From: Lachnospiraceae bacterium
GTDB lineage: Bacteria > Bacillota > Clostridia > Lachnospirales > Lachnospiraceae
Length of the DNA stretch: 64,000 bases
Assembly: GCA_017938315.1 (NCBI GenBank)
Contig: JAGBBV010000030.1
Coordinates: forward strand, 248,001 to 312,000
Reading direction: 5' to 3'
Of the stretch, positions 13,069 through 59,264 are shown piece by piece (the stretch's first letter is position 1; each line of letters starts with the position of its first letter). The notes beneath the pieces were generated by a model, which was not told the origin of the DNA, ran no database searches, and saw only the letters and a program-made list of their open reading frames with translations. The position numbers and the translations under genes were made by a program.

Positions 13069-13097
13069 TTGACATGAAAAAAGGTGTACGAGATAAT
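13069..13097 (+). promoter_or_regulatory. Promoter of VTC/DUF4956/CotH module 1
   Basis: Consensus TTGACA (13069-13074), 17-base spacer, GATAAT (13092-13097), 35 bases upstream of the VTC start codon. Confidence 0.75.
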
Positions 13098-13131
13098 GGA
13101 AAAGAAACGGAAATAATCTGTGAGGAGTAAA

Positions 13132-13803
13132 ATGTATAGGGTAGAAGACAAATTCGGATGTAGCCGTGCAGAGTTATATCATTTGCAAAAGCGTTTGGGG
13201 TATGTATTAGAATCGGATTCTAATGAAAATAATATAGAAGGCTATAAAGTAAGTAGTTTGTATTTTGATGATTTACAGGACTCATGCCTACGGGACACTA
13301 TAGAAGGATATCGAAGCAGAAGGAAATACCGTATCCGGATTTATAATGATTCCTTTGACGCGATTAAATTAGAGGTAAAAGAGAAACAAAATAACAGAAT
13401 ATATAAATTATCCAGAACCATTACAAAGGAGGAAATGGATAGACTCATTTGCGGTGAATGCATTGACTGCACTTATGGGCAGGACGATCCTGCCACACTT
13501 TTTAATCTGGCTATCAAGGAGACCGACCTCAGACCTAAGGTGATTGTGACATATGAAAGGAAAGCCTTTGTATATGACTGGGGCAATGTTCGCATTACGC
13601 TGGATAGAAACGTAAGAGGGAGTAATGATATATTACACTTTGGAAAAAAAGAACTAGCATACGATTTTGTGAGAGAGTGTGATGCGGTATTGGAAGTAAA
13701 GTATGATGAATTTATACCGCAATTTATTTTACAATTATTGGAACTTGGAAATATGAAACAGACAGCATATTCTAAATATCAATTATGCAGAGAATTGTTT
13801 TAA
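13132..13803 (+). CDS. VTC-domain polyphosphate polymerase-like protein (copy 1)
   Basis: Cytosolic VTC-domain protein, 223 residues, related to the catalytic core of yeast Vtc4, which makes polyphosphate from ATP. It keeps the family signature: SSLYFDD, the basic strand RRKYRIRIY, KLEVKEK, VTYERKAF, RITLDRNV and LEVKYDEFIP, which line the triphosphate tunnel. The start is ATG 13132 after TGAGGAG; GTG 13120 overlaps that site. First gene of a three-gene operon with a DUF4956 membrane protein and a CotH kinase-like protein; the same trio recurs at 26263-29190. Enzymatic activity is inferred from the family. Confidence 0.87.
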   Translation: MYRVEDKFGCSRAELYHLQKRLGYVLESDSNENNIEGYKVSSLYFDDLQDSCLRDTIEGYRSRRKYRIRIYNDSFDAIKLEVKEKQNNRIYKLSRTITKEEMDRLICGECIDCTYGQDDPATLFNLAIKETDLRPKVIVTYERKAFVYDWGNVRITLDRNVRGSNDILHFGKKELAYDFVRECDAVLEVKYDEFIPQFILQLLELGNMKQTAYSKYQLCRELF

Positions 13804-13833
13804 GAAAAATGAATGAAGGAGAGGAATAAGGTT

Positions 13834-14514
13834 ATGTCAACAAAAGATGTGATAAAAAATAATATATTGGAAAGTCTTTCGGGAGGCACCTATTTAGATG
13901 CAAAAACCGTTTTGGGAATTTTATTTTTTGCAGCGCTGATAGGTGTATATGTGTATCTGGTTTATCGTTTTTCTGCGAAAAAGGCTTTTTATTCTAAGGA
14001 TTTAAATATTACCATGGCGGGAATGCCTATAGTCGTAGCGGCCATTATGATTGCCATGCAGGCAAACTTACTGGTTTCCCTTGGTATGGTAGGTGCTTTA
14101 TCTATTGTAAGATTCCGTACGGCTGTGAAGAATCCTCTTGACTTACTCTTTTTGTTTTGGACAATCAGTGCGGGTATTATCTGTGGAGTTAATTTAAAGG
14201 CATTGGTGCTGGTACTGTGCGCCGTAATGACAATCCTTATTTTGGTTTTACAGACGGTTCCGCAGATGAGTACGCCTTCTGTGCTGGTAATCAGGGGAGA
14301 TGCTAAGGAAGCTGACTGGGAAGAGATAAAGGCTTGTGTGCAGGAACACACAAAGACAGCAAAGTTGCAGACAGAAGGCTTTAAGGCAGGCCAAATGGAA
14401 TTGATTTACGAAGTGAGAGAAAAGGCCGGCTCCGGGCTGATTAGCGAACTGCAGAAATATGAACACCTGCAAGGAGTAAATTTGCTGAAACATGATGGAG
14501 AATTTCGTGTATAG
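13834..14514 (+). CDS. DUF4956 membrane protein (copy 1)
   Basis: Membrane protein of about 226 residues with four hydrophobic helices in its first 130 residues and a soluble C-terminal domain. The signature SLGMVGALSIVRFRTAVK between helices is the hallmark of DUF4956 and is nearly identical in the second copy at 28516. The family is of unknown function but is regularly found beside VTC-domain proteins; a role in anchoring the polymerase or moving its product through the membrane is a reasonable guess only. ATG 13834 is chosen because its N-terminus (STKDVIKNNILE) aligns with that of the paralogue; the ATG at 13813 is part of the AAGGAGAGG ribosome region. Confidence 0.85.
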   Translation: MSTKDVIKNNILESLSGGTYLDAKTVLGILFFAALIGVYVYLVYRFSAKKAFYSKDLNITMAGMPIVVAAIMIAMQANLLVSLGMVGALSIVRFRTAVKNPLDLLFLFWTISAGIICGVNLKALVLVLCAVMTILILVLQTVPQMSTPSVLVIRGDAKEADWEEIKACVQEHTKTAKLQTEGFKAGQMELIYEVREKAGSGLISELQKYEHLQGVNLLKHDGEFRV

Positions 14515-14526
14515 GATGAAAGTGAT

Positions 14527-16488
14527 ATGAAAAAAACAATAGGATTGTTCATCGTATTGGCAACAATTCTGCTGGGACTCTGTTTCGTAGAAAATAAAAA
14601 GAACGAAGTGGTTTTGGTTGATGGGGAAAGAACGCCCTTTTCCATTCGGCTGCATTACGATATGGGAGAACTTATGGTGCATCCATGGTATGACGAAACG
14701 GCAGGAGTATGGTATGTGTTTCTTCCCGGCTATGTTGACTTGGAAGAGGCAGATTGCAGCCAGTTAAAACAGGGTGACTTTTTTGTGGATGGCGAAAAAC
14801 AAAATCGCCGGTTCACCTGGCAGGATAATATGCAATATGAAATTTCATACTGTGGACAAACCATGCAGGTTGTATTTTTGAAAGAGGAAAATTTGTCCAA
14901 TCTGTTTATAGAAACGCAAAGCGGTACAAACGATGTCATCAGGGCGGCCAAGGAAAATGTGGAGAAAGGCCATATTGTTTCTTTGGACCACCGGGGAAAT
15001 GTCCAGTATGACGGAAAAATGAAAGAGATTTCAGGACACGGAAATGCATGGCAGTTTTATGATAAGAGAGCTTATGATATTAAATTAAATGGGAAGGCTA
15101 CTTTAGCGGGCATTGATGGTGGCAACCAGTGGAAACTTCTTCATTTGTGGAATGACGGAGATAAAATTCATTCGAAACTGGCTTTTGACATTGCACAGAT
15201 TTTAGGGGCAGATTACACGCCGGATGCCACATGGGTAAATGTTTACTTAAACGGTGAGTATCATGGAATGTATTTGCTTACCACGGCAGTGCGGGATAAA
15301 GATGTTTTTAATACAAAGGACGTCCTCTTTTTAGAAAAGGACTTGGAAGACCGCTATACATTAGAAGAACATGTAGTATCGGAAGAAGGGAACGGGTTTG
15401 TGATTCATAGACCCAAAGAAGTGACGGAAGAAGAAAAAGAAAAAATCGGGCAGTTGGTGCAAGAGGTAGAGAATTCTATTGCAGACGGAAACCTGCAGCA
15501 AGAACTGATTGATGTTGATTCTTTTGCCACACAATTCTTGGTGGATGAAATTACATTAAACAGTGACGGGTTTGAAACCAGCACGTATTTATATCGGACT
15601 GCAGAGGGAAAACCTTTTTGTGCCGGTCCTGCATGGGACTATGACGGAGCTTTCGGTGAATACTTACACACAAGTGAGAATCATGTAAATCCCGGACAAT
15701 CTGTTTTAGACGGAGAGCCTACAGAACTGACCTGGTATCAGAAACTGTATGATAATCCGGAGTTTTTGGATACAGTAATAGGAAAATATGAAGCAGCAAT
15801 GCCACAGCTTAGAAAACTGTATGAGGAAAATATAGATTTATATGCACGGTATATAGCCACATCAGTCAGAAATGATGATATCAGATGGGGCGGGTATAAT
15901 GAGACACTTCCCAGAACAGGAAACTATCAGACATGGGAAAACGATGTCAGATATTTGAAATATTTCTGCACGGCCAGGTATAATGCCTTGATGGAGAGGT
16001 GGAGGATAGAAGGAGATAAGATTGCTTTTGAAACTACCGGAGAAGACCATAAGGTTAAAGTACTCTATGGCGGAAAAGAGACAGTGATAGAGGTGCGTGA
16101 CGGAGAGACATTAAAACCCCAGCAGCTTGATGAAATATGTACAAGAGAGGGTTGCGTGACAAAAATCGCCTACAGCGAGGAACCATACAGTGAATATATG
16201 CCGGTACTGGAAGACTTTGCCATAAAGGTGGAGGCAAGGCCTACTGTGGATGAGACGGAAGAGTATAAATATGTGCATATACCTAAGGACATCTTTGCGG
16301 AAAACTATGATTATGTTTCTGTGTTTATGATAGACTCTGGTGGTAATATGGAAAATCTGCAGGTGGCGGAGCCCCTTTCGGACATTTATTTAGAACTTGA
16401 TAAAGAGCAAACAGGTACCATTGCAATCTATGTTTTTGGTGATGCGACGGGGACTACAGTGCTGGAAGAAGTAGTAATAGAATATTAA
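14527..16488 (+). CDS. CotH-family kinase-like protein, secreted (copy 1)
   Basis: CotH-family protein of 653 residues. A single N-terminal hydrophobic helix (about 3-22) acts as signal anchor, so the kinase-like domain is outside the cell. Core motifs of the family are present: a YDIKLNGKATL segment, WKLLHLWNDGDKIHSKLAFD (the conserved W...D...K pattern), YLNGEYHGMYLL, and the metal-site region GPAWDYDGAFGE. The final 120 residues (about 500-653) form one or two small beta-rich domains not needed for kinase activity. B. subtilis CotH phosphorylates spore-coat proteins; the target here is unknown. Third gene of the VTC-DUF4956-CotH operon, which ends at the hairpin 16497-16518. Confidence 0.85.
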   Translation: MKKTIGLFIVLATILLGLCFVENKKNEVVLVDGERTPFSIRLHYDMGELMVHPWYDETAGVWYVFLPGYVDLEEADCSQLKQGDFFVDGEKQNRRFTWQDNMQYEISYCGQTMQVVFLKEENLSNLFIETQSGTNDVIRAAKENVEKGHIVSLDHRGNVQYDGKMKEISGHGNAWQFYDKRAYDIKLNGKATLAGIDGGNQWKLLHLWNDGDKIHSKLAFDIAQILGADYTPDATWVNVYLNGEYHGMYLLTTAVRDKDVFNTKDVLFLEKDLEDRYTLEEHVVSEEGNGFVIHRPKEVTEEEKEKIGQLVQEVENSIADGNLQQELIDVDSFATQFLVDEITLNSDGFETSTYLYRTAEGKPFCAGPAWDYDGAFGEYLHTSENHVNPGQSVLDGEPTELTWYQKLYDNPEFLDTVIGKYEAAMPQLRKLYEENIDLYARYIATSVRNDDIRWGGYNETLPRTGNYQTWENDVRYLKYFCTARYNALMERWRIEGDKIAFETTGEDHKVKVLYGGKETVIEVRDGETLKPQQLDEICTREGCVTKIAYSEEPYSEYMPVLEDFAIKVEARPTVDETEEYKYVHIPKDIFAENYDYVSVFMIDSGGNMENLQVAEPLSDIYLELDKEQTGTIAIYVFGDATGTTVLEEVVIEY

Positions 16489-16496
16489 TGGGAAAT

Positions 16497-16518
16497 GAGG
16501 GACTGACATCAGTCCCTC
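16497..16518 (+). terminator. Hairpin after CotH copy 1
   Basis: Perfect 10-bp inverted repeat GAGGGACTGA (16497-16506) / TCAGTCCCTC (16509-16518). The tail TTCTT is short, so termination may be partial. Confidence 0.6.
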
Positions 16519-16521
16519 TTC

Positions 16522-16550
16522 TTGACCGAAATAGCATATCGTGGTACGAT
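16522..16550 (+). promoter_or_regulatory. Promoter of the 16581-23555 operon
   Basis: TTGACC (16522-16527), 17-base spacer, TACGAT (16545-16550), directly after the preceding hairpin. Confidence 0.55.
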
Positions 16551-16580
16551 TAGTTAAAATGTGGATAAGGCGGTTTGAAA

Positions 16581-18107
16581 ATGGAAAAGACGAATAAACG
16601 CAAAGAAATCATTGTTATTCTGATTTTGATGGGAATATATCTTATTATAAACGGTATTTTTTTGGCTGGACATGAACATTGGCGTGACGAAGCGAATGTA
16701 TGGCTGGTGGCAAGAGATAATACACCATTTGAAGTGATTAAGGAAATCAGATGGCAGGGGCATCCCTGCTTGTGGTACTTTATTGTGATGCCCTTTGCGA
16801 AACTGGGATTTCCGTTTGAAACCATCAGCGTGTTAAGCTATCTGTTTATGACAACGGTTGCCTGTATCTTTATGCTTAAGGCACCTTTCCATATGATAAC
16901 TAAGACAATTTGTTTATTTAGTCCCATATTTACTTATTATTATCCGGTAGTGGCAAGAAACTATTGCGTATTGGTATTGCTGCTATTATTACTTGCACAC
17001 TTTTATCCCAAAAGAAATGAAAAGAGTATCTTATATGGCGTGCTTTTGGGACTTCTGGTACAAGCAGATACATTGGGACTTGTGGTGTCTGGCTTTATTT
17101 CCCTTATGTGGCTGTGGGAATGTGTATATACGAGTGTGAAGAAAAAAATAAAGGCTCCATTGTTTACTGGAGCCAAGGGCTTATGGATTCCTTTAGCCAG
17201 CTTTTTCTTTTGGGTATATCAGTTTTCGGGAGTTTCAGAAAGTCCCCTTTATTTAAATAGAAAGTTTTCTCCCGGAGAATTGTTGAGGGAAATGAGCATT
17301 TTTGCAAAATATATTTTGAACAGAATGACCGGTATGGAAGACGGATTTAATTTTATTGTGGTCATTTTGTTTTTGACGACAGGTGTATTAGTAGCGGTTG
17401 TAATGAAAAATGCATGGCCTACAATTGTTGTGTTAGGATTATTTGTTTTCCAGGTAATATTTAGCTTGATGATTTATCAGCTACACATCTGGCACTATAT
17501 TATGCTATGCTTTACAATTATTTGGAGTTTTTGGCTTGGCTGTGACAAGCGAAATGCAGCAGAATATCCGGAGGAAAAAAAGATTCCTTACGCCAAGGCT
17601 GGTAAAGCAGTAAGCGTGTTGGCTCAATTAGTGCTGGTTGTTCTTGGTGTGACGATGTTTTTGATGTGGATTTCACCTGAAGAGCCTTCCAATATAGCAA
17701 ATGCATATAACGGACTTTACTCTGACGGAAAAAATACAGCTGCTTATATAAAAGAGAATGTAGATGCAGAAGAATTGATTATCACAACGGATGTTTCGGA
17801 AGCTGCATCAGTGGTGGCATATTTGAATCGTGATTACCGGTTCTATTTTGCCGGTAATGGCGAAGCAGAAACGTTTTCCAGTTATAGAAATGAGCAGAAT
17901 GCACCCATTGCATATGCGCAGCTTTTAGAATGGATTGAAAATAATTTTCCGGAAAAAGAGTATTTCTATTTGATGGAATGCAGTACCAACTGTTTGACAG
18001 AGATTTCGAAGAATGATAAAGATGCATGGGAACTCTGCTATCAGACACCGGAAAAGACAGCAAGAAGTGAAGAATATAGTCTATACAAAATAGCATTAAC
18101 AAAATAG
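16581..18107 (+). CDS. GT-C-like multi-spanning membrane protein (RDE/GHP motifs)
   Basis: Polytopic protein (508 residues, about 10 helices) of the GT39-like kind. After helix 1 the outside loop carries GHEHWRDEANVWLVARD, with the acidic pair expected at a GT-C active site, and then RWQGHPCLWYFI, a pattern shared by family 39 relatives. A C-terminal extracytoplasmic region (about 380-508) has mixed alpha/beta character. ATG 16581 is preferred to TTG 16575 on spacing from AAGG. It heads a six-gene operon with an FAD oxidoreductase, two GT2 enzymes, an aminotransferase and a second membrane protein, which suggests it transfers a lipid-linked, perhaps amino, sugar. Confidence 0.75.
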   Translation: MEKTNKRKEIIVILILMGIYLIINGIFLAGHEHWRDEANVWLVARDNTPFEVIKEIRWQGHPCLWYFIVMPFAKLGFPFETISVLSYLFMTTVACIFMLKAPFHMITKTICLFSPIFTYYYPVVARNYCVLVLLLLLLAHFYPKRNEKSILYGVLLGLLVQADTLGLVVSGFISLMWLWECVYTSVKKKIKAPLFTGAKGLWIPLASFFFWVYQFSGVSESPLYLNRKFSPGELLREMSIFAKYILNRMTGMEDGFNFIVVILFLTTGVLVAVVMKNAWPTIVVLGLFVFQVIFSLMIYQLHIWHYIMLCFTIIWSFWLGCDKRNAAEYPEEKKIPYAKAGKAVSVLAQLVLVVLGVTMFLMWISPEEPSNIANAYNGLYSDGKNTAAYIKENVDAEELIITTDVSEAASVVAYLNRDYRFYFAGNGEAETFSSYRNEQNAPIAYAQLLEWIENNFPEKEYFYLMECSTNCLTEISKNDKDAWELCYQTPEKTARSEEYSLYKIALTK

Positions 18108-18129
18108 CAAAGAAGAGAAGGAAACTTTT

Positions 18130-19269
18130 ATGAATTGCAAATACGACAAAATCATAATCGGTGCCGGTTTATATGGAATGTATGCTGCCAAGTTTTGTGC
18201 AGACAGGGGAGAAAAGGTGCTGGTTTTGGAATATGACAAAGCTCCTTTTCAGAGAGCCACATACATTAATCAGGCCAGGGTGCATATGGGCTACCATTAT
18301 CCCAGAAGTTTAACCACTGCCATTAAATCGGCAGGGTATTTTAAAAGATTTGTGGAAGATTTCGGTTTTTGCATTCATGATAAATTTGATCAGGTATATG
18401 CCACGTCAGAAAAATTTTCATGGACGGATGCCAGACAGTTTATGGATTTTTGCAAGGCTGCAGGCATACGATGCGATGAGGTGGCTGCTTCCAAATATTT
18501 TAATGATGGTATGTGTGATGGCGCATTTATGACGCAGGAATATACCTATGATGCAAAAATATTGCAGAAATATTATGAGGAACAATTCTTAGGATTAGAA
18601 AATGTAACTTTTGTTTATGAAGCCAGAATCGATAAAATCATAAAGCGCGGACAGGCATTTGAAGTTTGGACGACAGATGGAAAGTGCTATGAAGCCCCCG
18701 TTGTTTTAAATGCAACCTATGCATCTGTGAATCAGATTATCGACAAGGTGGAAGGAATTCCCAAAACTTTATTTGATATTAAGTATGAACTTTGCGAAAT
18801 TATTTTGTGTGAGCCTTCGGATAAACTAAGAGGCACAGGAATTACGGTGATGGATGGCCCGTTTTTCTCTATTATGCCATTTGGTAAGACGGGACTTCAC
18901 TCATTGACATCTGTGACCTTTACGCCCCATGTAACTTCTTATGATGCGGTACCTACATTCGGATGCCAAAGTGGTATGGAAGAAAGGGTTTGTTGCACGA
19001 AAGAATCTCTTGGGAACTGTAATTTGTGTCCGAACAAACCTGATTCGGCATGGGATTATATGTCTCACTTAGCAGATAAATATTTAAAAGAGGAATATGG
19101 ATATACTTACCGGGAATCTTTGTATTCCATGAAACCTATCTTGAAATCATCAGAAGTTGATGATTCGAGACCCACGGCTATTAAGGTGCTCAGTGAAGGT
19201 CCTACTTTTATCAGTGTATTATCAGGTAAGATTAATACGGTTTATGATTTGGATGAGTATTTAGTATAA
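18130..19269 (+). CDS. FAD-dependent oxidoreductase (DAO-like)
   Basis: Soluble flavoprotein of 379 residues. The N-terminal dinucleotide fold is clear (IIIGAGLYGMYAAKF, then VLVLEYDKAPFQRAT), followed by a DAO-type substrate domain with ARVHMGYHYPRS. A cysteine cluster (CCTKESLGNCNLCPNK, near residue 296-311) is unusual for the family and could hold a metal or a disulfide. The C-terminal FAD contact region reads GPTFISVLSGKIN. Its place between a GT-C gene and two GT2 genes points to oxidation of a sugar or lipid-linked sugar, possibly preparing a keto-sugar for the aminotransferase at 20962; this is inference. The substrate is not known. Confidence 0.75.
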   Translation: MNCKYDKIIIGAGLYGMYAAKFCADRGEKVLVLEYDKAPFQRATYINQARVHMGYHYPRSLTTAIKSAGYFKRFVEDFGFCIHDKFDQVYATSEKFSWTDARQFMDFCKAAGIRCDEVAASKYFNDGMCDGAFMTQEYTYDAKILQKYYEEQFLGLENVTFVYEARIDKIIKRGQAFEVWTTDGKCYEAPVVLNATYASVNQIIDKVEGIPKTLFDIKYELCEIILCEPSDKLRGTGITVMDGPFFSIMPFGKTGLHSLTSVTFTPHVTSYDAVPTFGCQSGMEERVCCTKESLGNCNLCPNKPDSAWDYMSHLADKYLKEEYGYTYRESLYSMKPILKSSEVDDSRPTAIKVLSEGPTFISVLSGKINTVYDLDEYLV

Positions 19270-19290
19270 ACAAAGAGAAGGAAATAAAAA

Positions 19291-20235
19291 ATGCAAAAAG
19301 AGAAAAAATTCATTTCGTTGGTGGTATATCTTCATAACGTGGAGAGCTATATTGAATATTTTTTGGACAAAATTCTTCCGGTTTGTGAAGCGCATTTTGA
19401 AAAGTACGAAATTGTGTGTGTCAATGACGGATGTAGTGACGGCACCATAGAGATTGTAAAAGAGTATATGGAAAAAAACAAGGTGGGCGCCATGATGAAC
19501 ATTATTCACATGAGCTTTTTCCAGGGCCTTGAAAGTGCCATGAATGCAGGGCGCGACATTGCTATCGGTGATTTTGTGTACGAGTTTGATGATGTGTTTG
19601 TAGACTATGAGCCGGATATGCTGGTAAAAGTATATGAGAAACTCTTAGAGGGGAATGATATCGTAGCTGCAAGAAGCATGGGAAAACAGCGGATTACATC
19701 AAAACTCTTTTATTCCTTGTATAATATGACAAGCCGCGGAAGAGGACAAATCGGTCCGGAAACCTTCCGCATCGTTTCAAGGCGCGCTATTAACAGAATT
19801 AAGTCCATGGGGCAGTATATTCCCTACCGCAAGGCAGTGTATATGAATTGTGGGCTTAAGAATGCAACGCTTGCCTATGAAAGCAAAGACAGAAACGCAA
19901 GAGTGAAAAATAAGATTGTGGCATCAGAGAGGACGTCACTTGCGCTTGATTCTTTCATTTACTTTACCAGTGCACTTGAAAAGGTATCTGCAGTGATTAG
20001 TGGTGTCTTTTTGCTTGTGACAGTAGGAATGGGGATATATATTATTGCAGATTTCTTTAACGCAAACAAACCGGTAGAAGGCTGGCTTTCCACCATGAGT
20101 TTCCTGGCACTTGGATTTTTTGGTGTGTTTGCATTACTTACAATTATTTTGAAATACTTATCGGTTATGCTGAATTTGATTTTCAAAAATCAGAGATATT
20201 TGGTTGCAGATATAGAAAAGGTGGTTAAAAGATGA
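19291..20235 (+). CDS. GT2 polyprenyl-phosphate glycosyltransferase
   Basis: Family 2 glycosyltransferase of 314 residues with an N-terminal catalytic domain (SLVVYLHNVESYIE, CVNDGCSDGT, EFDDVFVDYEPDM as the acidic metal-binding region) and two C-terminal helices (about 230-252 and 270-292), the layout of enzymes that load sugars on undecaprenyl phosphate. The usual DxD appears as DDVF with flanking acids, so its active site is slightly divergent. It overlaps the next GT2 gene by ATGA, and the two may work as a pair or make two different donors. Confidence 0.82.
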   Translation: MQKEKKFISLVVYLHNVESYIEYFLDKILPVCEAHFEKYEIVCVNDGCSDGTIEIVKEYMEKNKVGAMMNIIHMSFFQGLESAMNAGRDIAIGDFVYEFDDVFVDYEPDMLVKVYEKLLEGNDIVAARSMGKQRITSKLFYSLYNMTSRGRGQIGPETFRIVSRRAINRIKSMGQYIPYRKAVYMNCGLKNATLAYESKDRNARVKNKIVASERTSLALDSFIYFTSALEKVSAVISGVFLLVTVGMGIYIIADFFNANKPVEGWLSTMSFLALGFFGVFALLTIILKYLSVMLNLIFKNQRYLVADIEKVVKR

Positions 20236-20978
20236 GTGAAATGAGCATCAACCTTCTGTTTCCGGTTTTAAATGAGAGACTTCGTCTCCGAAACGGAATA
20301 GAAAAGTCTATGGAATATTTGAAACAAAATGTGACGATTCCGTATAAACTGACCATTCTGGATAATGGATCAGATGATGAAACTCCGGAGATTGGAACGG
20401 AACTTGAAAAGAAGTACCAGGAAGTTTCCTATGTGAGAGTGGGAGAACGGGGAGTGGGTGTTGCTTTCCGAAAAGGAATTGAGTTAAATGAATGTGATAT
20501 TGTGGGATATATGGATATCGATTTATCTACAGACTTAAAATATCTTGGCAAGACCATTGAAATGTTTCAAAACGAACCGGAACTTCAATATGTCAATGGT
20601 AGCAGATTCAGCAAGGAGTCGGACACCAAAGGACGTAAGTGGTATCGGAAAATCACGTCCATGGGATTGGTCTTTTTGTTAAAAACAGTTTTTCATATGA
20701 AAGCAACAGATGCCGTGTGTGGTTTTACATTCCTCCGTAAGGATGCAGCGGAGAGACTGGTGGCTGAGAGCAGTAACGACAATGGCTGGTTTTACACCAT
20801 AGAGTTTCTTCTTCGGGCAGAACGTGATGGCATGGTGATTTATGACATGCCGGTAGAGTGGCAGGAAGATTATAATACCACGGTAAAAATTTGGAAAACC
20901 ATTAAAAATTATTTGATTCAGATTTATAAGTTAAAGAAGGCTTTTAAGGAAGAGGATAAAAATGTTAAAAAGAATTGA
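20232..20978 (+). CDS. GT2 glycosyltransferase, dolichyl-phosphate-glucose type, soluble
   Basis: Family 2 glycosyltransferase of 248 residues. Motifs include NLLFPVLNERLRL, LDNGSDDETPE, the metal-binding YMDIDLSTDL and CGFTFLRKDAAERL, the last typical of Alg5/DPM-like polyprenyl-phosphate sugar synthases. Unlike its neighbour it has no membrane helices. Translationally coupled to 19291 (ATGA) and overlapping the aminotransferase by 17 bases, so the genes are tightly co-translated. It may form a complex with the membrane-bound GT2. Confidence 0.82.
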   Translation: MSEMSINLLFPVLNERLRLRNGIEKSMEYLKQNVTIPYKLTILDNGSDDETPEIGTELEKKYQEVSYVRVGERGVGVAFRKGIELNECDIVGYMDIDLSTDLKYLGKTIEMFQNEPELQYVNGSRFSKESDTKGRKWYRKITSMGLVFLLKTVFHMKATDAVCGFTFLRKDAAERLVAESSNDNGWFYTIEFLLRAERDGMVIYDMPVEWQEDYNTTVKIWKTIKNYLIQIYKLKKAFKEEDKNVKKN

Positions 20979-22065: not shown

Positions 22066-22067
22066 AA

Positions 22068-23555
22068 ATGGAAATGAAAAAAGGAAAAGAGTGTAAATTT
22101 ACATTTAGGAGTGTGGCATTTTTCTTGACAATTGTATACATGGTAAGCTTGATTCCACTATTATGGATTAGTTTCTATAATTATCCCAGTGCAGATGATT
22201 ATTCTATTGGAAGCAATTGCAGACAGATATGGGTACAAAGCCATAATATTTTTGCAGTGCTATGGGGCGGCGTTGTGCGTGCAGTGGAGGATTGGCTGAG
22301 TTGGATGGGGTATTTTACATCTAATTTTTTAATGGCAGTACCGCCAAGTACTTTCGGAGAAAGATGTTATGTTTTGACAGCGTGGATTATTCTTTTTGCC
22401 CTCAGCTTTTCTACATGCTATTTTCTGAAGATGATTTTTGTAAAAGTATTTCACGCAGACAAATATGTAAGCCATAGTGTGAGTATGCTGATGCTGTTTG
22501 TTACGGTGCAGTGCATGGTGGGAAGAGTGGAGGCTTTTTACTGGTATAGTGGGGCAGCCAATTATATGCTGGTTCACAGTATGAGTTTACTCTTTTATGG
22601 ATTGCTGATTTCTTTACTATATGATAAAGGAAAAAAACGGATATCCAAGTTGACGATAGCATCTTTTCTGGGCTTTTTAGTTGGTGGTGGCAATCAAATG
22701 ACAGCTTTAAATGTAGCAATTGTGTTGTTTGTTGCTATAGGCTTAGGCATGTTGTTTAAGAAATGGAATGAACATAAAGGACTATTTATTCCCATTATAT
22801 TGTTTTATATCGGGTTTGTATTAAATGTAGTAGCACCGGGAAATTGGGTACGTGCAGAAGGTGTAGGAGGCATGAATCCTATCAAGGCAGTGTTGGTTTC
22901 TTTTTACTATTGCCTTGATTATTGCGTTGAAGAATGGTCCGGCTGGCCCATAGTTATTATGGTGGTAGCCCTTGTGCCGCTGTTTTGGAAAATGGTTTCA
23001 AAAACAGAATTCAAATTTTCATATCCGCTGATAGTAGTAGTGTTTGGCTACTGTCTTGTGTCAGCCATGATGACGCCACCGTTATTTGCTGTTGGTAATA
23101 TGGAAGCTGCAAGATTACAGGCAGTGACCTTTGCAATGTATCTGCTGGTACTCACGTTGTGTGAAGGATACGTGGTAGGATGGGTGCAGAAAAAAATGCA
23201 AAAAGAAAAGCCGGAAACTGTTGGAAAATTTTCGGTTAATGAAACTTGGTGCTTACTAAGCTGCCTATTATTTTTTGTGGCAGCGGCAGGCATAACAATT
23301 ATACCGGAACCACATTATTTCACGGCATCTTCTGCGGTTGCGAGTTTGACCGATGGAAGTGCTAAAGAATATGGTGATGCACTGAAGGAACGTATGGTGC
23401 TTTACAACAGTGGACAAAAGGATATTGTGGTACAACCTTTGCCCACACAGCCTAATCTTCTTTATTTTTCTGACATTAAGGAAGACGCAGGTGATTGGGA
23501 AAATGGGGGATTGTGCAGATATTACGGGATAGATTCTGTAAGAGTGAAAAAATAA
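22068..23555 (+). CDS. DUF6056 multi-spanning membrane protein
   Basis: Membrane protein of 495 residues, about 10-12 helices, of the DUF6056 group, which is thought to be GT-C-like. The loop after helix 1 holds YNYPSADDYSIG, with the conserved acidic pair, and the next loops are rich in Trp and Tyr. The C-terminal soluble part (about 420-495) resembles the end domains of such proteins. ATG 22068 sits 8-9 bases from AGGAAAG; a GTG at 22062, overlapping the aminotransferase stop as GTGA, is the alternative. Last gene of its operon, ended by a strong terminator. Confidence 0.78.
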   Translation: MEMKKGKECKFTFRSVAFFLTIVYMVSLIPLLWISFYNYPSADDYSIGSNCRQIWVQSHNIFAVLWGGVVRAVEDWLSWMGYFTSNFLMAVPPSTFGERCYVLTAWIILFALSFSTCYFLKMIFVKVFHADKYVSHSVSMLMLFVTVQCMVGRVEAFYWYSGAANYMLVHSMSLLFYGLLISLLYDKGKKRISKLTIASFLGFLVGGGNQMTALNVAIVLFVAIGLGMLFKKWNEHKGLFIPIILFYIGFVLNVVAPGNWVRAEGVGGMNPIKAVLVSFYYCLDYCVEEWSGWPIVIMVVALVPLFWKMVSKTEFKFSYPLIVVVFGYCLVSAMMTPPLFAVGNMEAARLQAVTFAMYLLVLTLCEGYVVGWVQKKMQKEKPETVGKFSVNETWCLLSCLLFFVAAAGITIIPEPHYFTASSAVASLTDGSAKEYGDALKERMVLYNSGQKDIVVQPLPTQPNLLYFSDIKEDAGDWENGGLCRYYGIDSVRVKK

Positions 23556-23575
23556 GTTAATAATTTCTTAATATT

Positions 23576-23607
23576 AAAAGCGGAACCTTTTAAATGGTTC
23601 CGCTTTT
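23576..23607. terminator. Strong intrinsic terminator
   Basis: AAAAGCGGAACC (23576-23587) pairs perfectly with GGTTCCGCTTTT (23596-23607), loop of 8 bases. It closes the operon 16581-23555. The 156 bases after it hold no clear promoter. Confidence 0.92.
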
Positions 23608-23763
23608 GTGTATACTATAAATAGTAATAGGCGGTAAAACCAAGCTTTTAAAGAAATGCGTATTCATTAAAGTTTGAAAATGATCTTTCTTGAAAATGCT
23701 TTTCGGTGAAAAGACAGGTGCGTGATAGAAGAGCGGAAATAAAAGAATAGGGAGAAGAAATAA

Positions 23764-25164
23764 GTGTTTGTTTCATTCTATTTTCTTGTCTTTTTGGTGA
23801 TAACGGTACTTCTTTTTTTTAGTGTTAAAAAAACATGGAGACCCCAAGTTCTTTTGGCGACAAGCTATTTTATTTGCGGCGCAATTTCTGCATATGCCTT
23901 AATTGCAATGCTTGGGGTAACAGTCATATCCTATTTTGTAGCCATAAAAATAGAAAAATATTTTGACGAGAAAAAGGACGGGGAAGCTAAGCTAATTTTG
24001 ACGATAGCAGTCATTGGCACGCTGCTATTCCTTGTGAGATATAAATATACTCCGAATACTTTACAATTAATAGGAATCTCCTTTTATACATTTCAGGCAA
24101 TTGCTTATATGGTAGATGTATATCGGAGAAAATACAAATCGGAGAAAAATTTTGTTTATTTGGCATTATTTTTTTCATTATTTGCAAAGCTTATAAGTGG
24201 ACCTATAGAGCGTGGGGACAAGTTATTACCTCAACTAAAGTGGCTGGAGAAGGTCCGTTTTGGAAATAGGGCAAGACTCTCTACAGCATTTACATATATG
24301 TTGTGGGGGTATTTTATGAAGATGGTAGTAGCTGATAGATTGGCTGTTACCGTAAATGCTATTTTCCATAGCCCACAATTCTTTGATAGTTTTTGGCTGT
24401 TTCTGGGGGCTTTTTTTTACACAATCCAGATTTATTGTGATTTCGCAGGATATTCCTATATTGCTATAGGATGTGCCAGATTATTTGGAATTCATCTCAC
24501 CCATAATTTTGAGACACCATATTGTTCAAAAAGTATAATAGAGTTTTGGAAATGTTGGCATATTTCTTTAAGCAGCTGGCTGAAGGAATATTTATATATT
24601 CCTTTAGGAGGAAACAAAAAAGGAGAACTTAGGAAGTATGGAAATCTTATAATTGTGTTTGTGCTTTGCGGCATTTGGCATGGTGTGGGTCTTAACTTTG
24701 TGGTATGGGGATTGATTCATGGAGTTTATTCGGTTATCAATCACATTTGGAGAAAATATCATAAGCAATCGCAGAAGTGTATTTGGGGGATTGTTTCATG
24801 GATAACGACCTTTACTTCTGTTATGATAGCATGGATTTTTTTCAGGGCACCCGACTTAAAAAATGCAGGCATATACTTCTGGCGGATACTGACAGTAGGA
24901 ATGAATGTAAACAGTATAAGAGAAGGTGCAATGCAACTTAATTTAAATGATGTAGAAATTGCTGTAATCGCAGTGGGAATTATTGTTGTGATGGTGATGG
25001 ACTATATTTGTAATCGGAAGCAAATCCATTTGCCGGAACTTATTCAACATAGAGGGAATGCAATGCGTTACTTGATTTTCTACTTGCTGATAATTGCTAT
25101 TTTTGTCTTTGGCATATATGGACCGGGATATCATGCAGAACAGTTTATTTATATGCAATTTTAA
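23764..25164 (+). CDS. MBOAT-family O-acyltransferase (copy 1)
   Basis: Membrane-bound O-acyltransferase of 466 residues, AlgI/DltB-like, which passes acyl groups from the cytoplasm across the membrane for O-acylation of a surface polymer. About ten helices; the catalytic-His region is CGIWHGVGLNFVVWGLIHG and the conserved segment YCDFAGYSYIAIG plus FWKCWHISLSSWLKEYLYIP and PLGGNKKG are typical. The GTG start at 23764 follows AGGGAGAAG. It is followed after 11 bases by an SGNH-type partner, as in AlgI-AlgJ/X or PatA-PatB systems, and begins a long operon that continues through the second CotH/VTC/DUF4956 module. Confidence 0.92.
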   Translation: MFVSFYFLVFLVITVLLFFSVKKTWRPQVLLATSYFICGAISAYALIAMLGVTVISYFVAIKIEKYFDEKKDGEAKLILTIAVIGTLLFLVRYKYTPNTLQLIGISFYTFQAIAYMVDVYRRKYKSEKNFVYLALFFSLFAKLISGPIERGDKLLPQLKWLEKVRFGNRARLSTAFTYMLWGYFMKMVVADRLAVTVNAIFHSPQFFDSFWLFLGAFFYTIQIYCDFAGYSYIAIGCARLFGIHLTHNFETPYCSKSIIEFWKCWHISLSSWLKEYLYIPLGGNKKGELRKYGNLIIVFVLCGIWHGVGLNFVVWGLIHGVYSVINHIWRKYHKQSQKCIWGIVSWITTFTSVMIAWIFFRAPDLKNAGIYFWRILTVGMNVNSIREGAMQLNLNDVEIAVIAVGIIVVMVMDYICNRKQIHLPELIQHRGNAMRYLIFYLLIIAIFVFGIYGPGYHAEQFIYMQF

Positions 25165-25175
25165 AAGGGAAAGCT

Positions 25176-26219
25176 ATGAGAAGTGAAAATAAAAAGCATT
25201 TGATACGAATAGGTGCAATTACTATTTTTGCGGTTACAATATATATGTTGACAGCAGTGCTGGGATTCAAGTCACCTCACGGGATCAATCAATTGGAAGG
25301 ATTATATAAACAACCAAAAGGAACAATAGATGTAGTGTTCATGGGAACGAGCCACATACACTGTGGTGTCAATACCGGGCTGCTATGGGAAAAGTACGGA
25401 ATGGCTTCTTATGATTACAGCGGTGCAGAACAACCGCTTTGGATGACATACCATTATTTAAAGGAATTGTATAAATATCAGTCGCCTGAAGTAGTGGTAA
25501 TCGATTTGTTTGCACCTGCAAGGATTAAGGAGGATTATCAGTATACATGGATGAATGAGAATATCCATGGCATGCGTTTTTCGCTAAATAAGCTTCAGAT
25601 GATGTTTGCCAGTATGGAGCCACATATGATTAGTAAATATTTTCCATCATTTGCCTCTTATCACAGTAGATATGATGATTTGGAAAAAGGGGATTTTAAC
25701 GATTTTTTTTGGAATGACCATGAGCAAATTGCTTTTAAAGGATATACTCCTTATTTTAAAAAGGAACCACAGGACAAACCTGAAATAGAGACAACTGAGC
25801 AGGGTGGTTTAACAGAAAAATCTGAGAAGTATTTACGGAAAATAATAAAATATACAAAGGAACAGGGGAGTGAACTTGCATTTATAGTAGTTCCATATAT
25901 TATGACAGAAAGTGATAAAGAAACATATAATGAGATTTGCCGGATTGCGAGAGAAGAAGATGTTTTTTTTGTGGATTATAATGAGTGCTATAAAGAAATA
26001 GGGTTGGATTTTGCGAATGATTTTAATGATAATTCACACTTGAATTACTGGGGAAGCTGTAAATTTACATCATTCTTAGGAGAAAATTTGAGAGCTAATT
26101 TCCATATTTCAAACAAAGCCGGATGGGAAGGCTATGAATCGTGGGATGAGAATACAAAGCTAATTTTAGAAGAATTGGAGATTTGGAAAGAAGAAACCTT
26201 TTCAAATCTCCTATTTTGA
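25176..26219 (+). CDS. SGNH-type acyltransfer partner of MBOAT copy 1
   Basis: Membrane-anchored SGNH/AlgX-like protein, 347 residues. One N-terminal helix (about 9-28) places the rest outside. Block I is VVFMGTSHIHCG (Ser in GTSH as nucleophile), and the C-terminal block is NDNSHLNYWG, supplying the Asp/His. Proteins of this type take the acyl group delivered by the MBOAT partner and put it on the sugar. The short spacing to the MBOAT gene supports a two-component unit. Which polymer is acylated is not shown by the sequence. Confidence 0.83.
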   Translation: MRSENKKHLIRIGAITIFAVTIYMLTAVLGFKSPHGINQLEGLYKQPKGTIDVVFMGTSHIHCGVNTGLLWEKYGMASYDYSGAEQPLWMTYHYLKELYKYQSPEVVVIDLFAPARIKEDYQYTWMNENIHGMRFSLNKLQMMFASMEPHMISKYFPSFASYHSRYDDLEKGDFNDFFWNDHEQIAFKGYTPYFKKEPQDKPEIETTEQGGLTEKSEKYLRKIIKYTKEQGSELAFIVVPYIMTESDKETYNEICRIAREEDVFFVDYNECYKEIGLDFANDFNDNSHLNYWGSCKFTSFLGENLRANFHISNKAGWEGYESWDENTKLILEELEIWKEETFSNLLF

Positions 26220-26262
26220 TGTACAATTTTAAGGATGGGGTAAAGTTTGAAAAGGATTATAT

Positions 26263-27819
26263 ATGAAGAAATTAAAATTATTTGTAATAATAATGTCATG
26301 CTTATTTTTGGTGGTATATTTAAACTATAATAAATTGGAGAATAGCCTTAATCATACAGTGATGGACACCAAAGTGCTGTCGCCGGAAGAAATAGAATTG
26401 AGGCTGGAAACAAAGGAAAAAACATTTATTTGGCCTGAGATTACCATAAATGGCGGTAGGGTTCCGTATGATTTAGATTTAAATATGTTACTGATTCCGC
26501 AGAGTATGGCAGAAAGTGAAATGACAGGTACACTAAGCGTGCCGGACGGAGAATTATTTTTTGCAGCAGACGAAGCACTTGAGGACAAGCAAAGTGCATT
26601 AAGCGAAAACAAACGTTTTTCTCTATATTGGGTTAGGGATAATATTTGCTTTGAGTATAATGTATACTTTACGGGAATGCCTGTCATGTGGATGATAACG
26701 GAAAGCGTTGATGAGCTGGAAGTTTCACACGGAACAGTTGAAATTTATGACCCATATCATAGTAATTTGCAGGTGCAGAAATCTGCTTGTAACTGGCATC
26801 GGCGTGGTGCCACCACATTGCAATATGAAAAATCCAGTTATCGGTTGACACTAACAGAACAAAAGTTATCCTTGCTTGGTATGAGGAAGGATGATGATTG
26901 GATGATGCATGCATTGTATGATGATGATGGTTTGATTCACAATAAATTGTCATATGAAGTATGGCAGAAAATAGCTAGCACAAATAACGTACCTAATGAT
27001 GAAGGCATTTCCATGGAGTATGTGGAAGTGTTCAAAGATGGTTATTATCAAGGTGTATATGGAATCTCGGAAAGAATTGACGAAAAAGAACTGGGTTTGA
27101 ATGAGAAGGACATTCTTTATAAATGCAAGTGGGACAGAGAACCTACAGAAGATGATTTCTACAGCGAACTTACAGAGGAAATGACTCCGTCTTTTGAGTG
27201 GAAGTATCCTGATAATTTCCAGATGGAGAATTGGGAACCACTTAGGAAATGGACAGATTTTTATTGCATGGGAGAACTAAATGATTATGAATCAGGAAAA
27301 GCTCTTTTAAATATGCAAAATGCGATTGACTATAACATATTTAATTTGTTAATCTGTGGCATGGACAACACTATGAAAAATATATATTTCTGGGCAGATT
27401 ATCAAGGAGATGGGACCTATCGCTTTATCAAAATACCTTGGGATTTAAATATGACATGGGGCAATTCATGGATTGATGATATCACCTATAAGTTCAATAA
27501 GTATCAGGAGAAGACTTTGAATAACCAGTGGGGGTGGACAAATGATATGGATACTTTGTATCAAGCAAACCCCGGAGAAATCGGAGAACTACTCAAAGTG
27601 CGCTGGCAGGAACTGCGACAGGATGTTCTTACAAAAGAAGTATTATATAGTTTGGCAGACGCGGAATTTTCATATTTACATGGTTCCGGTGCATATGCAA
27701 GAAATTATCAAAAATGGCCGGCTGAAACTGATTATTGGTTAGATAACTATATCTATGAATATATTGATAAAAAAATTGATTATTTAGATGAATACTTCGG
27801 ACAGATGGGAGAGCCATAA
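26263..27819 (+). CDS. CotH-family kinase-like protein (copy 2)
   Basis: CotH-family protein, 518 residues, with an N-terminal signal anchor (about 4-22). Conserved elements: SACNWHRRGATTL, YRLTLTEQKLSLLGMRKDDD, the W...D...K run WMMHALYDDDGLIHNKLSYE, FKDGYYQGVYGISERI and the metal-site region PWDLNMTWGNSW. It lacks the long C-terminal extension of copy 1 and has an N-terminal beta-rich domain (about 55-165) instead. The stop overlaps the start of the VTC gene (TAATG), so it is part of the same unit as the polyphosphate polymerase-like protein, here in the order CotH-VTC-DUF4956. The target of phosphorylation is unknown. Confidence 0.83.
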   Translation: MKKLKLFVIIMSCLFLVVYLNYNKLENSLNHTVMDTKVLSPEEIELRLETKEKTFIWPEITINGGRVPYDLDLNMLLIPQSMAESEMTGTLSVPDGELFFAADEALEDKQSALSENKRFSLYWVRDNICFEYNVYFTGMPVMWMITESVDELEVSHGTVEIYDPYHSNLQVQKSACNWHRRGATTLQYEKSSYRLTLTEQKLSLLGMRKDDDWMMHALYDDDGLIHNKLSYEVWQKIASTNNVPNDEGISMEYVEVFKDGYYQGVYGISERIDEKELGLNEKDILYKCKWDREPTEDDFYSELTEEMTPSFEWKYPDNFQMENWEPLRKWTDFYCMGELNDYESGKALLNMQNAIDYNIFNLLICGMDNTMKNIYFWADYQGDGTYRFIKIPWDLNMTWGNSWIDDITYKFNKYQEKTLNNQWGWTNDMDTLYQANPGEIGELLKVRWQELRQDVLTKEVLYSLADAEFSYLHGSGAYARNYQKWPAETDYWLDNYIYEYIDKKIDYLDEYFGQMGEP

Positions 27820-28502
27820 TGAATTACAGACATGAATTAAAATTTATAGTGTCTGACCTGGAACTAAATATTTTAAAATATCGGTTGATGCCTTTAATGC
27901 ATGAAGACAGACACCAAAAAGGTGGCGTATATAACATCAGAAGTTTGTATTTTGATGACTTCTATGATACGTGTATGCATGAAAATGAAGACGGAATAGA
28001 TAATCGAAAAAAATACCGGATTCGTATTTACAATGGAAGTGACCATGTCATTAAGCTGGAGAAGAAAATAAAAGTCCGGGGAATGACGAGAAAGATAAGC
28101 ACCGGTATTGATAAAGAAAAGTGTTTGACCTACATGAAAGGGGAAACGCTTATTCCAAACAAAGACAGCACGGATTTAGAAAGAGAATTTTATGCTGAAA
28201 TCAAAATGAATGGTATGCATCCTGTGAGCATTGTGGAGTATGAGCGAACCGCGTTTGTGGACTTTAGAGGAAATACAAGAATTACTTTTGACAGGAACAT
28301 CAGTGGAAGTGAAAAGATTGCTTCTTTTTTTGATAAGCCGGTACTGACACCGTTATTACCAAAGGGAAAACATATTTTAGAAGTAAAATATGATGAATTG
28401 ATTCCTGAATATTTATTACAGGTGCTAGATATTGGAAGTCTACAGAGAACTGCCTTTTCAAAATATTATTTATCACGAAATTATCAAAATACTTGGAAAT
28501 AA
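27819..28502 (+). CDS. VTC-domain polyphosphate polymerase-like protein (copy 2)
   Basis: Second VTC-domain protein, 227 residues. It has RSLYFDDFYD, the basic strand RKKYRIRIY, IKLEKKIK, VEYERTAF, RITFDRNI and LEVKYDELIP, all as in copy 1, but the middle loop differs. A 1-base overlap with the CotH stop (TAATG) couples translation. It is thus expected to polymerise phosphate from ATP, or to bind polyphosphate, next to the DUF4956 membrane protein that follows 13 bases later. Activity is by family inference. Confidence 0.87.
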   Translation: MNYRHELKFIVSDLELNILKYRLMPLMHEDRHQKGGVYNIRSLYFDDFYDTCMHENEDGIDNRKKYRIRIYNGSDHVIKLEKKIKVRGMTRKISTGIDKEKCLTYMKGETLIPNKDSTDLEREFYAEIKMNGMHPVSIVEYERTAFVDFRGNTRITFDRNISGSEKIASFFDKPVLTPLLPKGKHILEVKYDELIPEYLLQVLDIGSLQRTAFSKYYLSRNYQNTWK

Positions 28503-28515
28503 GGGAGGAGAATAA

Positions 28516-29190
28516 ATGAATTTCGGAGATGTAATTAAGAAGTCTGTGTTGGAAGGTTTTACATATTCAGACTTATCTACTACTAAAATTTTAACGACTT
28601 TGCTTATAACGTTTGCCATAGCAGTGTACATTTTCTGTGTATATAAGTTAGTCACAAAAAGTGCTTTCTATTTCAAAAGCTTTAATGTATCAATGGCTAT
28701 TATTTCTGTGGTTACTGCAGGAATTATTTTGGCGATGCAATCCAGTATTGTGATTTCCCTTGGTATGGTTGGTGCGCTTTCTATTGTAAGATTCCGTACA
28801 GCTATTAAAGACCCTATGGATTTGTTGTTTCTGTTTTGGTCTATTGGAACAGGCATCATTTGTGGGGCGGGATTATATAAGATTGCTGTAATCCTGGCAG
28901 TTCTTATAACAGTAGGAATCTTAATTTTAGACCTGTTCCCTATTAGAATGAGTCCATATTTACTGATAATAAATGCTTCTTCTAAAGAAACTGAAAGCGA
29001 AATCAAAGATACTTTAAAAGAGATGAAAGTGGGATATAAATTGAAATCAAAAAATATCACCAAAGAAGGGATGGACCTCATCTTAGAAGTAAAAACAAAA
29101 CAGGAAACAGAAGTTGTGGATGCTATTTCCGAGATGGAAGGTATTGTAGCAGTTTCTTTGCTCGCACATGATGGAGAGATAAAAGGTTAG
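28516..29190 (+). CDS. DUF4956 membrane protein (copy 2)
   Basis: Second DUF4956 protein, 224 residues, four helices followed by a soluble C-terminal domain. The motif SLGMVGALSIVRFRTAIK and the following DLLFLFWSIGTGIICG match copy 1 almost residue for residue; the two genes also share long runs of identical bases here (about 28755-28805 against 14069-14119), showing duplication or strong constraint. GGGAGGAG lies 5 bases before the ATG. Family function unknown. Confidence 0.86.
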   Translation: MNFGDVIKKSVLEGFTYSDLSTTKILTTLLITFAIAVYIFCVYKLVTKSAFYFKSFNVSMAIISVVTAGIILAMQSSIVISLGMVGALSIVRFRTAIKDPMDLLFLFWSIGTGIICGAGLYKIAVILAVLITVGILILDLFPIRMSPYLLIINASSKETESEIKDTLKEMKVGYKLKSKNITKEGMDLILEVKTKQETEVVDAISEMEGIVAVSLLAHDGEIKG

Positions 29191-31150: not shown

Positions 31151-31175
31151 AATATCGGATAAAAGGAGATTAAAT

Positions 31176-55818: not shown

Positions 55819-55829
55819 GGAGTAACATT

Positions 55830-56723: not shown

Positions 56724-56748
56724 AGAAAATGTAGCGGAGGTATTTTAG

Positions 56749-57618: not shown

Positions 57619-57641
57619 AAAAGAAATAGGAGATAAAAGTA

Positions 57642-58208: not shown

Positions 58209-58214
58209 GTAGAG

Positions 58215-59246: not shown

Positions 59247-59264
59247 GCAGAAAAGGAAAGAAGC

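Follow-up and report, generated by a model that had tools for sequence, protein, structure and literature searches.

Two permuted copies of a VTC, DUF4956 and CotH gene group in the genome of a Lachnospiraceae bacterium

The closest described relatives of the gene group analysed here are found in the Pel loci of Gram-positive bacteria, where cotH, a poly-phosphate polymerase gene, DUF4956 and DUF4832 adjoin the Pel genes in streptococci and clostridia (PMC7112168; this and the other papers are cited for individual sections). Deletion of the DUF4956-like gene in Streptococcus intermedius has been reported to give more Pel and less aggregation, whereas deletion of the CotH gene gives less Pel and less aggregation (PMC12345266). 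According to these sections, the trio of a VTC domain protein, a DUF4956 membrane protein and a CotH kinase-like protein is already known from Gram-positive Pel loci, to which it is accessory, and has partly been tested by deletion. The locus NELoc-2 of Clostridium perfringens, in the section describing it, contains two VTC genes and one CotH gene (PMC2879425; the locus also appears in PMC11677781). Here we describe two copies of the trio in a stretch of 64,000 nucleotides (the window) from a Lachnospiraceae bacterium (contig JAGBBV010000030.1, positions 248,001 to 312,000), the genome of which is 2.63 Mb in 40 contigs and 97% complete; its closest relatives in our search are Lachnospiraceae. 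An earlier note on this DNA had proposed the trio as a candidate for an undescribed system. That claim has to be given up, as the cited sections of PMC12345266 and PMC7112168 name the trio, and those of PMC2879425 report two VTC genes together with CotH. Analysis of related genomes reveals that VTC and DUF4956 form a near-obligate pair, with CotH as a frequent but exchangeable third member.

Two permuted copies in the window

All six open reading frames of the two copies are open, lie on the plus strand and match their expected Pfam family only (E 0.001). Copy 1 (13120-16488) has the order VTC-DUF4956-CotH and copy 2 (26263-29190) the order CotH-VTC-DUF4956, so the permuted arrangement described in the earlier note is confirmed by reading frames and Pfam. 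The VTC domain protein of copy 1 (13120-13803, 227 amino acids (aa)) is of the triphosphate-tunnel, polyphosphate-polymerase type (PF09359, E 1.3e-35). An in-frame ATG at 13132, the start given in the earlier note and the point where the homologues in three related loci (L004, L015 and L043) begin, is a possible alternative start. The VTC gene is followed after 9 bases by the DUF4956 membrane protein (13813-14514, 233 aa; PF16316, E 1.2e-14), whose start may be at 13834 as judged by eye, and after a further gap of 12 bases by the CotH kinase-like protein (14527-16488, 653 aa; PF08757, E 5.3e-40). In copy 2, CotH comes first (26263-27819, 518 aa; PF08757, E 3.6e-32) and overlaps the VTC gene (27819-28502, 227 aa; PF09359, E 9.3e-35) by one base, the first base of VTC being the last base of the CotH stop codon. 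Thirteen bases separate VTC from DUF4956 (28516-29190, 224 aa; PF16316, E 1.3e-10). Both CotH proteins have an N-terminal hydrophobic segment, and both DUF4956 proteins have about four hydrophobic segments and belong, by remote homology, to the MgtC superfamily.

Protein identity between the copies is 40.8% for VTC, 43.2% for DUF4956 and 29% for CotH. Because these identities are so low, the copies do not stem from a recent duplication; a recent tandem duplication is also ruled out by their position on different branches of the VTC tree. As judged from their sequences, the two copies are old and separately inherited. Conservation is locally much higher in the DUF4956 motif SLGMVGALSIVRFRTA, where 43 of 48 bases match between the copies as compared to 54% across the whole gene, in agreement with the near-identity noted earlier. 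The VTC motifs fared less uniformly. LEVKYDE is present in both proteins, whereas RKYRIRIY, also assigned to both, reads KKYRIRIY in copy 2, and the common part is KYRIRIYN.

The two copies also differ in their nearest relatives among the best 80 of the 94 related loci found. Copy 1 is closest to L003 (84, 84 and 76%), which has the same gene order. For copy 2, VTC and DUF4956 are nearest to those of L048 (63 and 76%) and L047 (59 and 71%), whereas its CotH is nearest to those of L011 and L016 (41%), which indicates that CotH swaps partners. L047 and L048 share much of the copy 2 neighbourhood; L048 has no CotH there, and L047 has the arrangement VTC-DUF4956-CotH-VTC-DUF4956.

Pairing of VTC with DUF4956 and the exchangeable CotH gene

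Searches of 60 genomes, namely the window's own genome and 59 relatives, gave 118 VTC, 116 DUF4956 and 140 CotH hits, some genes being split into two hits. DUF4956 is located within 2.5 kb and on the same strand for 115 of the 118 VTC hits, with VTC first in every case. The remaining three consist of one hit that is paired on inspection (L137), one piece at a contig edge and one fragment covering 77 profile positions. Two DUF4956 hits are unpaired, one at a contig edge (L139) and the other in a CotH-DUF4956 arrangement (L138). A similar picture is obtained from a sample of 149 genomes of the phylum, where 20 genomes have VTC and exactly these 20 also have DUF4956. Each family gives 26 hits there, and the two gene counts agree in every one of the 20 genomes. 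Twenty-five of the 26 pairs are adjacent (20 with VTC first, 5 with DUF4956 first) and one is split over two contigs, near the start of each. The chance that two sets of 20 out of 149 genomes coincide is 3e-25 if relatedness is ignored. Among 14 control genomes, both families match in the same three: Bacteroides ihuae, Corynebacterium glutamicum and Methanosarcina acetivorans. In the C. glutamicum genome CotH is matched by profile as well.

CotH is present in 21 of the 149 genomes, 18 of which are among the 20 that have VTC. The lack of co-occurrence that would speak against the grouping made in the earlier note is therefore not seen. In the 60-genome sample, VTC and CotH occur together in 40 genomes, VTC only in 4 and CotH only in 3; all three families are present in 40. 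CotH lies within 2 kb on the same strand upstream of 48 and downstream of 44 of the 115 pairs, and on neither side of 23. Two of these 23 have CotH between VTC and DUF4956 (an arrangement found in 4 pairs overall), so that CotH is close to 94 pairs and 21 are without it. In genomes with VTC, CotH does not always adjoin the pair (G139, G082), and the 7-9 kb fetched around the pair in G139, G142 and G096 contain no CotH. With the three genes together, every one of the six possible orders occurs: VTC-DUF4956-CotH, CotH-VTC-DUF4956 and VTC-CotH-DUF4956 in the 60 genomes, CotH-DUF4956-VTC and DUF4956-CotH-VTC in L140 and L141, and DUF4956-VTC-CotH in L157. Permutation is thus general to the gene group and not special to the window.

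The inheritance of the three genes follows the same pattern. In the best 80 loci, 79 of 81 VTC genes adjoin DUF4956, the exceptions being L007 and L019 (contig end). Pairwise distances of VTC and DUF4956 are correlated with r = 0.95 over 81 pairs including the two of the window, a value reached by 0 of 999 permutations, which reflects co-inheritance. In the 49 units that have CotH, the correlation is 0.91 for VTC-DUF4956, 0.77 for VTC-CotH and 0.83 for DUF4956-CotH. By these comparisons, the VTC-DUF4956 pair appears as a stable unit in which CotH is exchanged. It might be argued that the genes form a horizontally moved accessory cassette, in which they travel together while the three proteins act separately; the swapping of partners by CotH and the presence of the trio on a plasmid would agree with this. 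However, equal gene counts and the correlation over 81 pairs are hard to obtain by hitch-hiking, and all six gene orders occur with the genes together, so we regard this explanation as highly improbable.

Proposed coupling of polyphosphate synthesis to an MgtC-type membrane protein

A profile built from 50 VTCs has its best solved relatives in Vtc4 structures (3g3q, E 3.8e-9), and six of the seven solved chains matched are Vtc4 and one is Vtc2. The Vtc4 residues K200, R264, R266, K281, Y359, R361 and R373 correspond to K11, R71, R73, K87, Y145, R147 and R158 in copy 1. All seven of these tunnel residues are unchanged in both copies, and each is retained by 49 or 50 of the 50 VTCs, so the loss of such residues from both copies, which the earlier note had named as a counter-argument, is not observed. 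Changes of R264, R266 and E426 inactivate Vtc4, and in yeast the exit of the TTM domain opens onto a membrane channel (PMC9911596, sections on these points). E192, K194, S218 and K219 are invariant in all 50 VTCs and may be the counterparts of Vtc4 E426, K428, S457 and K458; a profile of the C-terminal part gave no mapping of Vtc4 E426 and K458 onto the bacterial proteins. The conserved residues suggest that VTC probably makes polyphosphate. A role as the sole polyphosphate maker of the window genome is ruled out by the presence of PPK1. In the literature on VTC, CotH, MgtC and polyphosphate that we searched, most subscription journals being outside its scope, no title deals with the biochemistry of a bacterial VTC, and one review, in its cited section, maps VTC4 across eukaryotes only (PMC10657179).

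The earlier note had described DUF4956 as a four-helix membrane protein. The hydrophobic segments agree with this, but the protein is not merely that: a profile comparison by hhalign of 41 DUF4956 with 20 MgtC proteins gives a probability of 97.1% (E 7.5e-11) over 198 columns that include the membrane and tail parts, as compared to E 0.5 for VTC against MgtC and E 0.3 for DUF4956 against VTC. On the strength of this alignment, DUF4956 is a remote MgtC homologue, its C-terminal domain included. In 39 genomes the Pfam MgtC model has five matches that stay under its cut-off. Three of them are DUF4956 places (G040, E 7.7e-6; G051, E 2.0e-5; G045, E 1.6e-4; 22.8-27.2 bits against a cut-off of 31.4), while the other two are in G066, a genome not searched for DUF4956, and in G052, elsewhere than DUF4956. 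Of the 41 DUF4956 proteins, 9 are matched by the same model with E values of 0.01 or lower, the best being 2.1e-5. The NCBIfam MgtC/SapB model matches copy 2 (E 4.7e-4, 19.8 bits against a cut-off of 214) and does not match the DUF4956 of copy 1, so that DUF4956 reaches the curated family cut-off of neither the Pfam nor the NCBIfam model. A sequence search against solved structures gave chance matches only. The DUF4956-like protein of Streptococcus has already been described, in the relevant section of PMC12345266, as an MgtC transmembrane domain joined to an ACT domain.

For CotH, a profile was built from 36 of the 60 CotH hits in the loci and the window, 33 of the 36 having a VTC or DUF4956 gene at most 1.5 kb away. 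It matches the Bacillus CotH structure 5jd9 with E 2.9e-44. Two aspartates (D347 and D371 in copy 1, D368 and D394 in copy 2), which we take to be D228 and D251 of B. subtilis CotH, are both present in 32 of the 36 proteins. A hydrophobic N-terminal stretch is found in 35 of 36, and the remaining protein scores 1.76 against a threshold of 1.8. Ten further CotH places were fetched for lying away from a VTC. Three of them (L147, L148, L149) encode short proteins of 352-364 aa without a hydrophobic N-terminus, four (L150, L152, L153, L156) have one, and in three (L151, L154, L155) the frame is cut or broken.

From these features we propose, with somewhat less than even confidence, that cytoplasmic polyphosphate synthesis is coupled to an MgtC-type membrane partner, with the kinase-like protein acting outside. 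VTC and DUF4956 would be two halves of one membrane machine. VTC would act in the cytoplasm as a triphosphate-tunnel enzyme and, like yeast Vtc4, make polyphosphate out of ATP, while DUF4956, of the MgtC superfamily and with an ACT-like tail, would anchor it at the membrane and either move the growing chain outward or gate its synthesis. CotH, kinase-like and with an export or membrane-anchor signal, would work with the pair on an outside target in most loci. The parts of this proposal differ in strength. Physical coupling of VTC and DUF4956 is the best explanation of their equal numbers and side-by-side position, as in the yeast VTC complex, and the pair is almost certainly a functional unit. 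That CotH acts outside the cell seems rather likely, and its target in the window genome is probably part of the surface-glycan machinery. The passing or gating of polyphosphate by DUF4956 is suggested more tentatively.

A number of observations weigh against this coupling. Two concern the enzyme itself: the position of Vtc4 T198 is taken by E9, invariant in 50 of 50 bacterial VTCs, and the window's own genome is among the 46 of the 60 genomes that have PPK1, so that polyphosphate can be made without VTC. By alignment, E9 seems to occupy the position of Glu-4 of AtTTM3, an acidic-patch residue of tripolyphosphatases (PMC4641920, section on this enzyme); AtTTM3 has four glutamates in place of basic residues of Vtc4 (PMC4641920). 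It is conceivable that VTC is some other triphosphate-tunnel enzyme, either a hydrolase or a transferase with an acceptor that is not polyphosphate, and that it acts on a membrane substrate which DUF4956 presents to it. E9 and PPK1 favour such an enzyme, as does the failure of the C-terminal catalytic residues to map to Vtc4. However, the bacterial R7 aligns with Vtc4 R196, all seven mapped tunnel residues match the polymerase, and the solved chains matched are six Vtc4 and one Vtc2, so we consider this alternative unlikely. Because R7 matches R196 yet E9 replaces T198, the bacterial VTCs are best described as resembling the polymerase pattern closely without fully matching it. The other adverse points concern the partners. 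L138 has CotH-DUF4956 without VTC within the 8.5 kb fetched, and no DUF4956 was found on the 15 kb around the VTC of L007. MgtC proteins are not known to act as polyphosphate channels. Two genomes that gave no VTC match encode a CotH protein with a hydrophobic N-terminus (L150, L156), which weakens the idea that exported CotH depends on VTC. Finally, no change is reported for the VTC deletion in S. intermedius in the cited section (PMC12345266), and since the deletion effects differ, the three proteins are not equal parts of one output in that species.

A broader form of the coupling proposal, which we regard as distinctly unlikely, is that bacteria and archaea own a polyphosphate synthase-exporter, in which a VTC-type polymerase is coupled 1:1 to an MgtC-family protein and, in most loci, supplies an extracellular CotH kinase, in surroundings poor in ATP, with phosphate or polyphosphate. 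If true, it would give DUF4956, and perhaps MgtC proteins generally, a polyphosphate-linked transport role, and would account for the supply of a kinase that works outside.

In bacteria, the synthesis of polyphosphate is generally ascribed to PPK enzymes. VTC is maintained in equal number with an MgtC-like protein across the phylum sample, and the two also occur jointly in one actinobacterium, one Bacteroides and one archaeon of the control genomes, which suggests a second route linked to the membrane. DUF4956 gains a testable partner, which provides a fresh handle on the function of MgtC proteins.

Surroundings of the gene group and comparison with known systems

The window copies are surrounded by genes for GT-C and GT2 glycosyltransferases, an epimerase, a DegT aminotransferase and an MBOAT acyltransferase and, farther away, a second MBOAT, dTDP-sugar genes and a Wzt-type transporter gene, because of which we consider the region a surface-glycan locus. 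Some relatives also sit in glycan loci. To that extent the link to surface polymers made in the earlier note holds; it is not a general feature of 33 diverse chosen loci, where Pfam analysis of 131 neighbours finds two-component families commonest. No glycosyltransferase family is among the first 25 of 155 neighbour families listed for these loci, a scan that undercounts glycan genes because the listing ends at 25 families and Pfam does not recognise some GT-C-like neighbours. ABC transporters are commonest among 119 control neighbours. With home-made models, 60 of the 80 loci (those of at least 12 kb) were compared with 20 control regions from 9 genomes, which were placed by hand away from known VTC hits and not at random. 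The counts were 13/60 against 1/20 for GT2 (p 0.17), 11/60 against 0/20 for GT-C (p 0.057), 9/60 against 0/20 for DegT (p 0.10), 13/60 against 1/20 for epimerase (p 0.17), 5/60 against 1/20 for MBOAT (p 1.0) and none in either set for UbiA. A confinement of VTC-DUF4956 to glycan loci is not upheld by these counts or by the 33 loci, where two-component families come first.

It is possible that a two-component system regulates the gene group outside glycan loci. Histidine kinase genes lie shortly upstream of the VTC-DUF4956 pair in L046 (6341-7795) and L049 (5899-7221). The prominence of two-component systems also bears on a regulatory explanation, in which DUF4956 acts like MgtC in tuning ATP or phosphate handling, CotH phosphorylates proteins of the surface-polymer machinery and VTC gives a local phosphate or polyphosphate signal, so that the trio sets the amount of polysaccharide and no phosphate polymer is exported. 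The opposite changes in Pel upon deletion of DUF4956 and CotH, with none reported for VTC (PMC12345266), fit this explanation, and both Pel papers propose, in the sections cited, a phosphorylation-based regulation or a part in phosphate metabolism (PMC7112168, PMC12345266). It leaves the equal numbers of VTC and DUF4956 unexplained, and we hold it to be somewhat unlikely, though it deserves attention beside the membrane-coupled synthesis proposed above.

The gene group is not confined to Pel loci, because the window genome, 97% complete, has no PelG match; membership of a Pel locus, where pelDEADAFG would adjoin the trio, is rejected for it on the same ground. PelG was found in 8 of the 60 genomes and not in the other 52, in a search that covered PelG but not PelD, E, A or F. 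There is no VTC hit on any of the eight contigs with PelG, although fragmented assemblies could hide links. No PelG match is found in 32 of the 40 genomes with all three families. The authors of PMC12345266, in the section concerned, did not find the synteny outside the Pel locus; our data show that the trio is not limited to such loci.

VTC relatives are present in three plasmid records, one of which was viewed. On plasmid pNP95 of Pseudobutyrivibrio xylanivorans (L116, NZ_CP043029.1), CotH-VTC-DUF4956 is located amid glycosyltransferases, acyltransferases and pyruvyl transferases. Three short fecal scaffolds that are marked 'UNVERIFIED' and filed under phage also contain DUF4956; we guess them to be bacterial DNA.

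Closer to the copies themselves, a promoter-like site on the plus strand ahead of copy 1 (13069-13097, TTGACA-17-GATAAT) has 11 of 12 consensus bases, which is only suggestive, since shuffling of the 64 kb window leads one to expect about 0.9 sites that deviate at no more than one base. An inverted repeat seen by eye 3' of the copy 1 CotH was not flagged as a terminator by the scanner, and no RNA element in the window reaches the Rfam gathering score. An MBOAT acyltransferase (by Pfam) and a 347-aa protein without a Pfam match precede copy 2 (23764-26219, plus strand); both are also present in L047 and L048, so this neighbourhood is conserved. After copy 2 follow a 649-aa membrane protein and a radical SAM/SPASM protein, the latter by Pfam (29201-32156, plus strand), with a relative of the former in L047 (57%) and of the latter in L047 and L048 (83 and 85%).

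Further downstream, a large alpha-L-rhamnosidase is encoded on the minus strand (38757-42125) in the same glycan region, and the segment 42283-48279 contains the second MBOAT (45709), a DUF6077 protein and unnamed proteins in an order kept in L048. A sugar dehydratase/epimerase, a dTDP-4-dehydrorhamnose 3,5-epimerase and a Wzt-C ABC transporter protein (54733-60590), which lie downstream of the module, form a surface polysaccharide set of the rhamnose type. Other genes of the window include a MerR-type regulator fused to a methyltransferase domain (48498-49673), a GH25 lysozyme-like protein with a choline-binding repeat (52237-54708) and a 784-aa AAA_13 protein (2648-5002), a type of ATPase that includes RloC-type defence proteins.

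Comparison with known systems places the window copies near several of them. With the Pel-locus cotH-PPP-DUF4956 module, the window shares the three adjacent families, and the Streptococcus DUF4956-like member of that module is, in the section describing it, MgtC plus ACT; the window differs in having no PelG match, two divergent copies in different order and a setting of GT-C, MBOAT and rhamnose genes. The C. perfringens NELoc-2, in its cited description, is similar in combining CotH and two VTC genes in one locus, with another gene after each VTC. However, it has one CotH for two pairs and the partner genes are labelled tubulin/FtsZ; from their size and position, these may well be DUF4956. 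Like the yeast VTC complex (Vtc1/Vtc3/Vtc4), the window combines a triphosphate-tunnel polymerase-type protein, with the same mapped tunnel residues, and a membrane protein partner. In contrast to yeast, the window VTC of 227 aa is without an SPX domain, the VTC domain being the only one found by Pfam, and the partner is MgtC-like and separately encoded instead of a Vtc1-type three-helix domain. DUF4956 shares remote homology over 198 columns, C-terminal domain included, with the MgtC/SapB family, from which it differs in staying under the Pfam MgtC cut-off and in its invariant residues. The window CotH proteins, finally, share the kinase-like domain and the two conserved aspartates with the Bacillus spore-coat CotH kinase (5jd9), compared to which they are longer and have a hydrophobic N-terminus.

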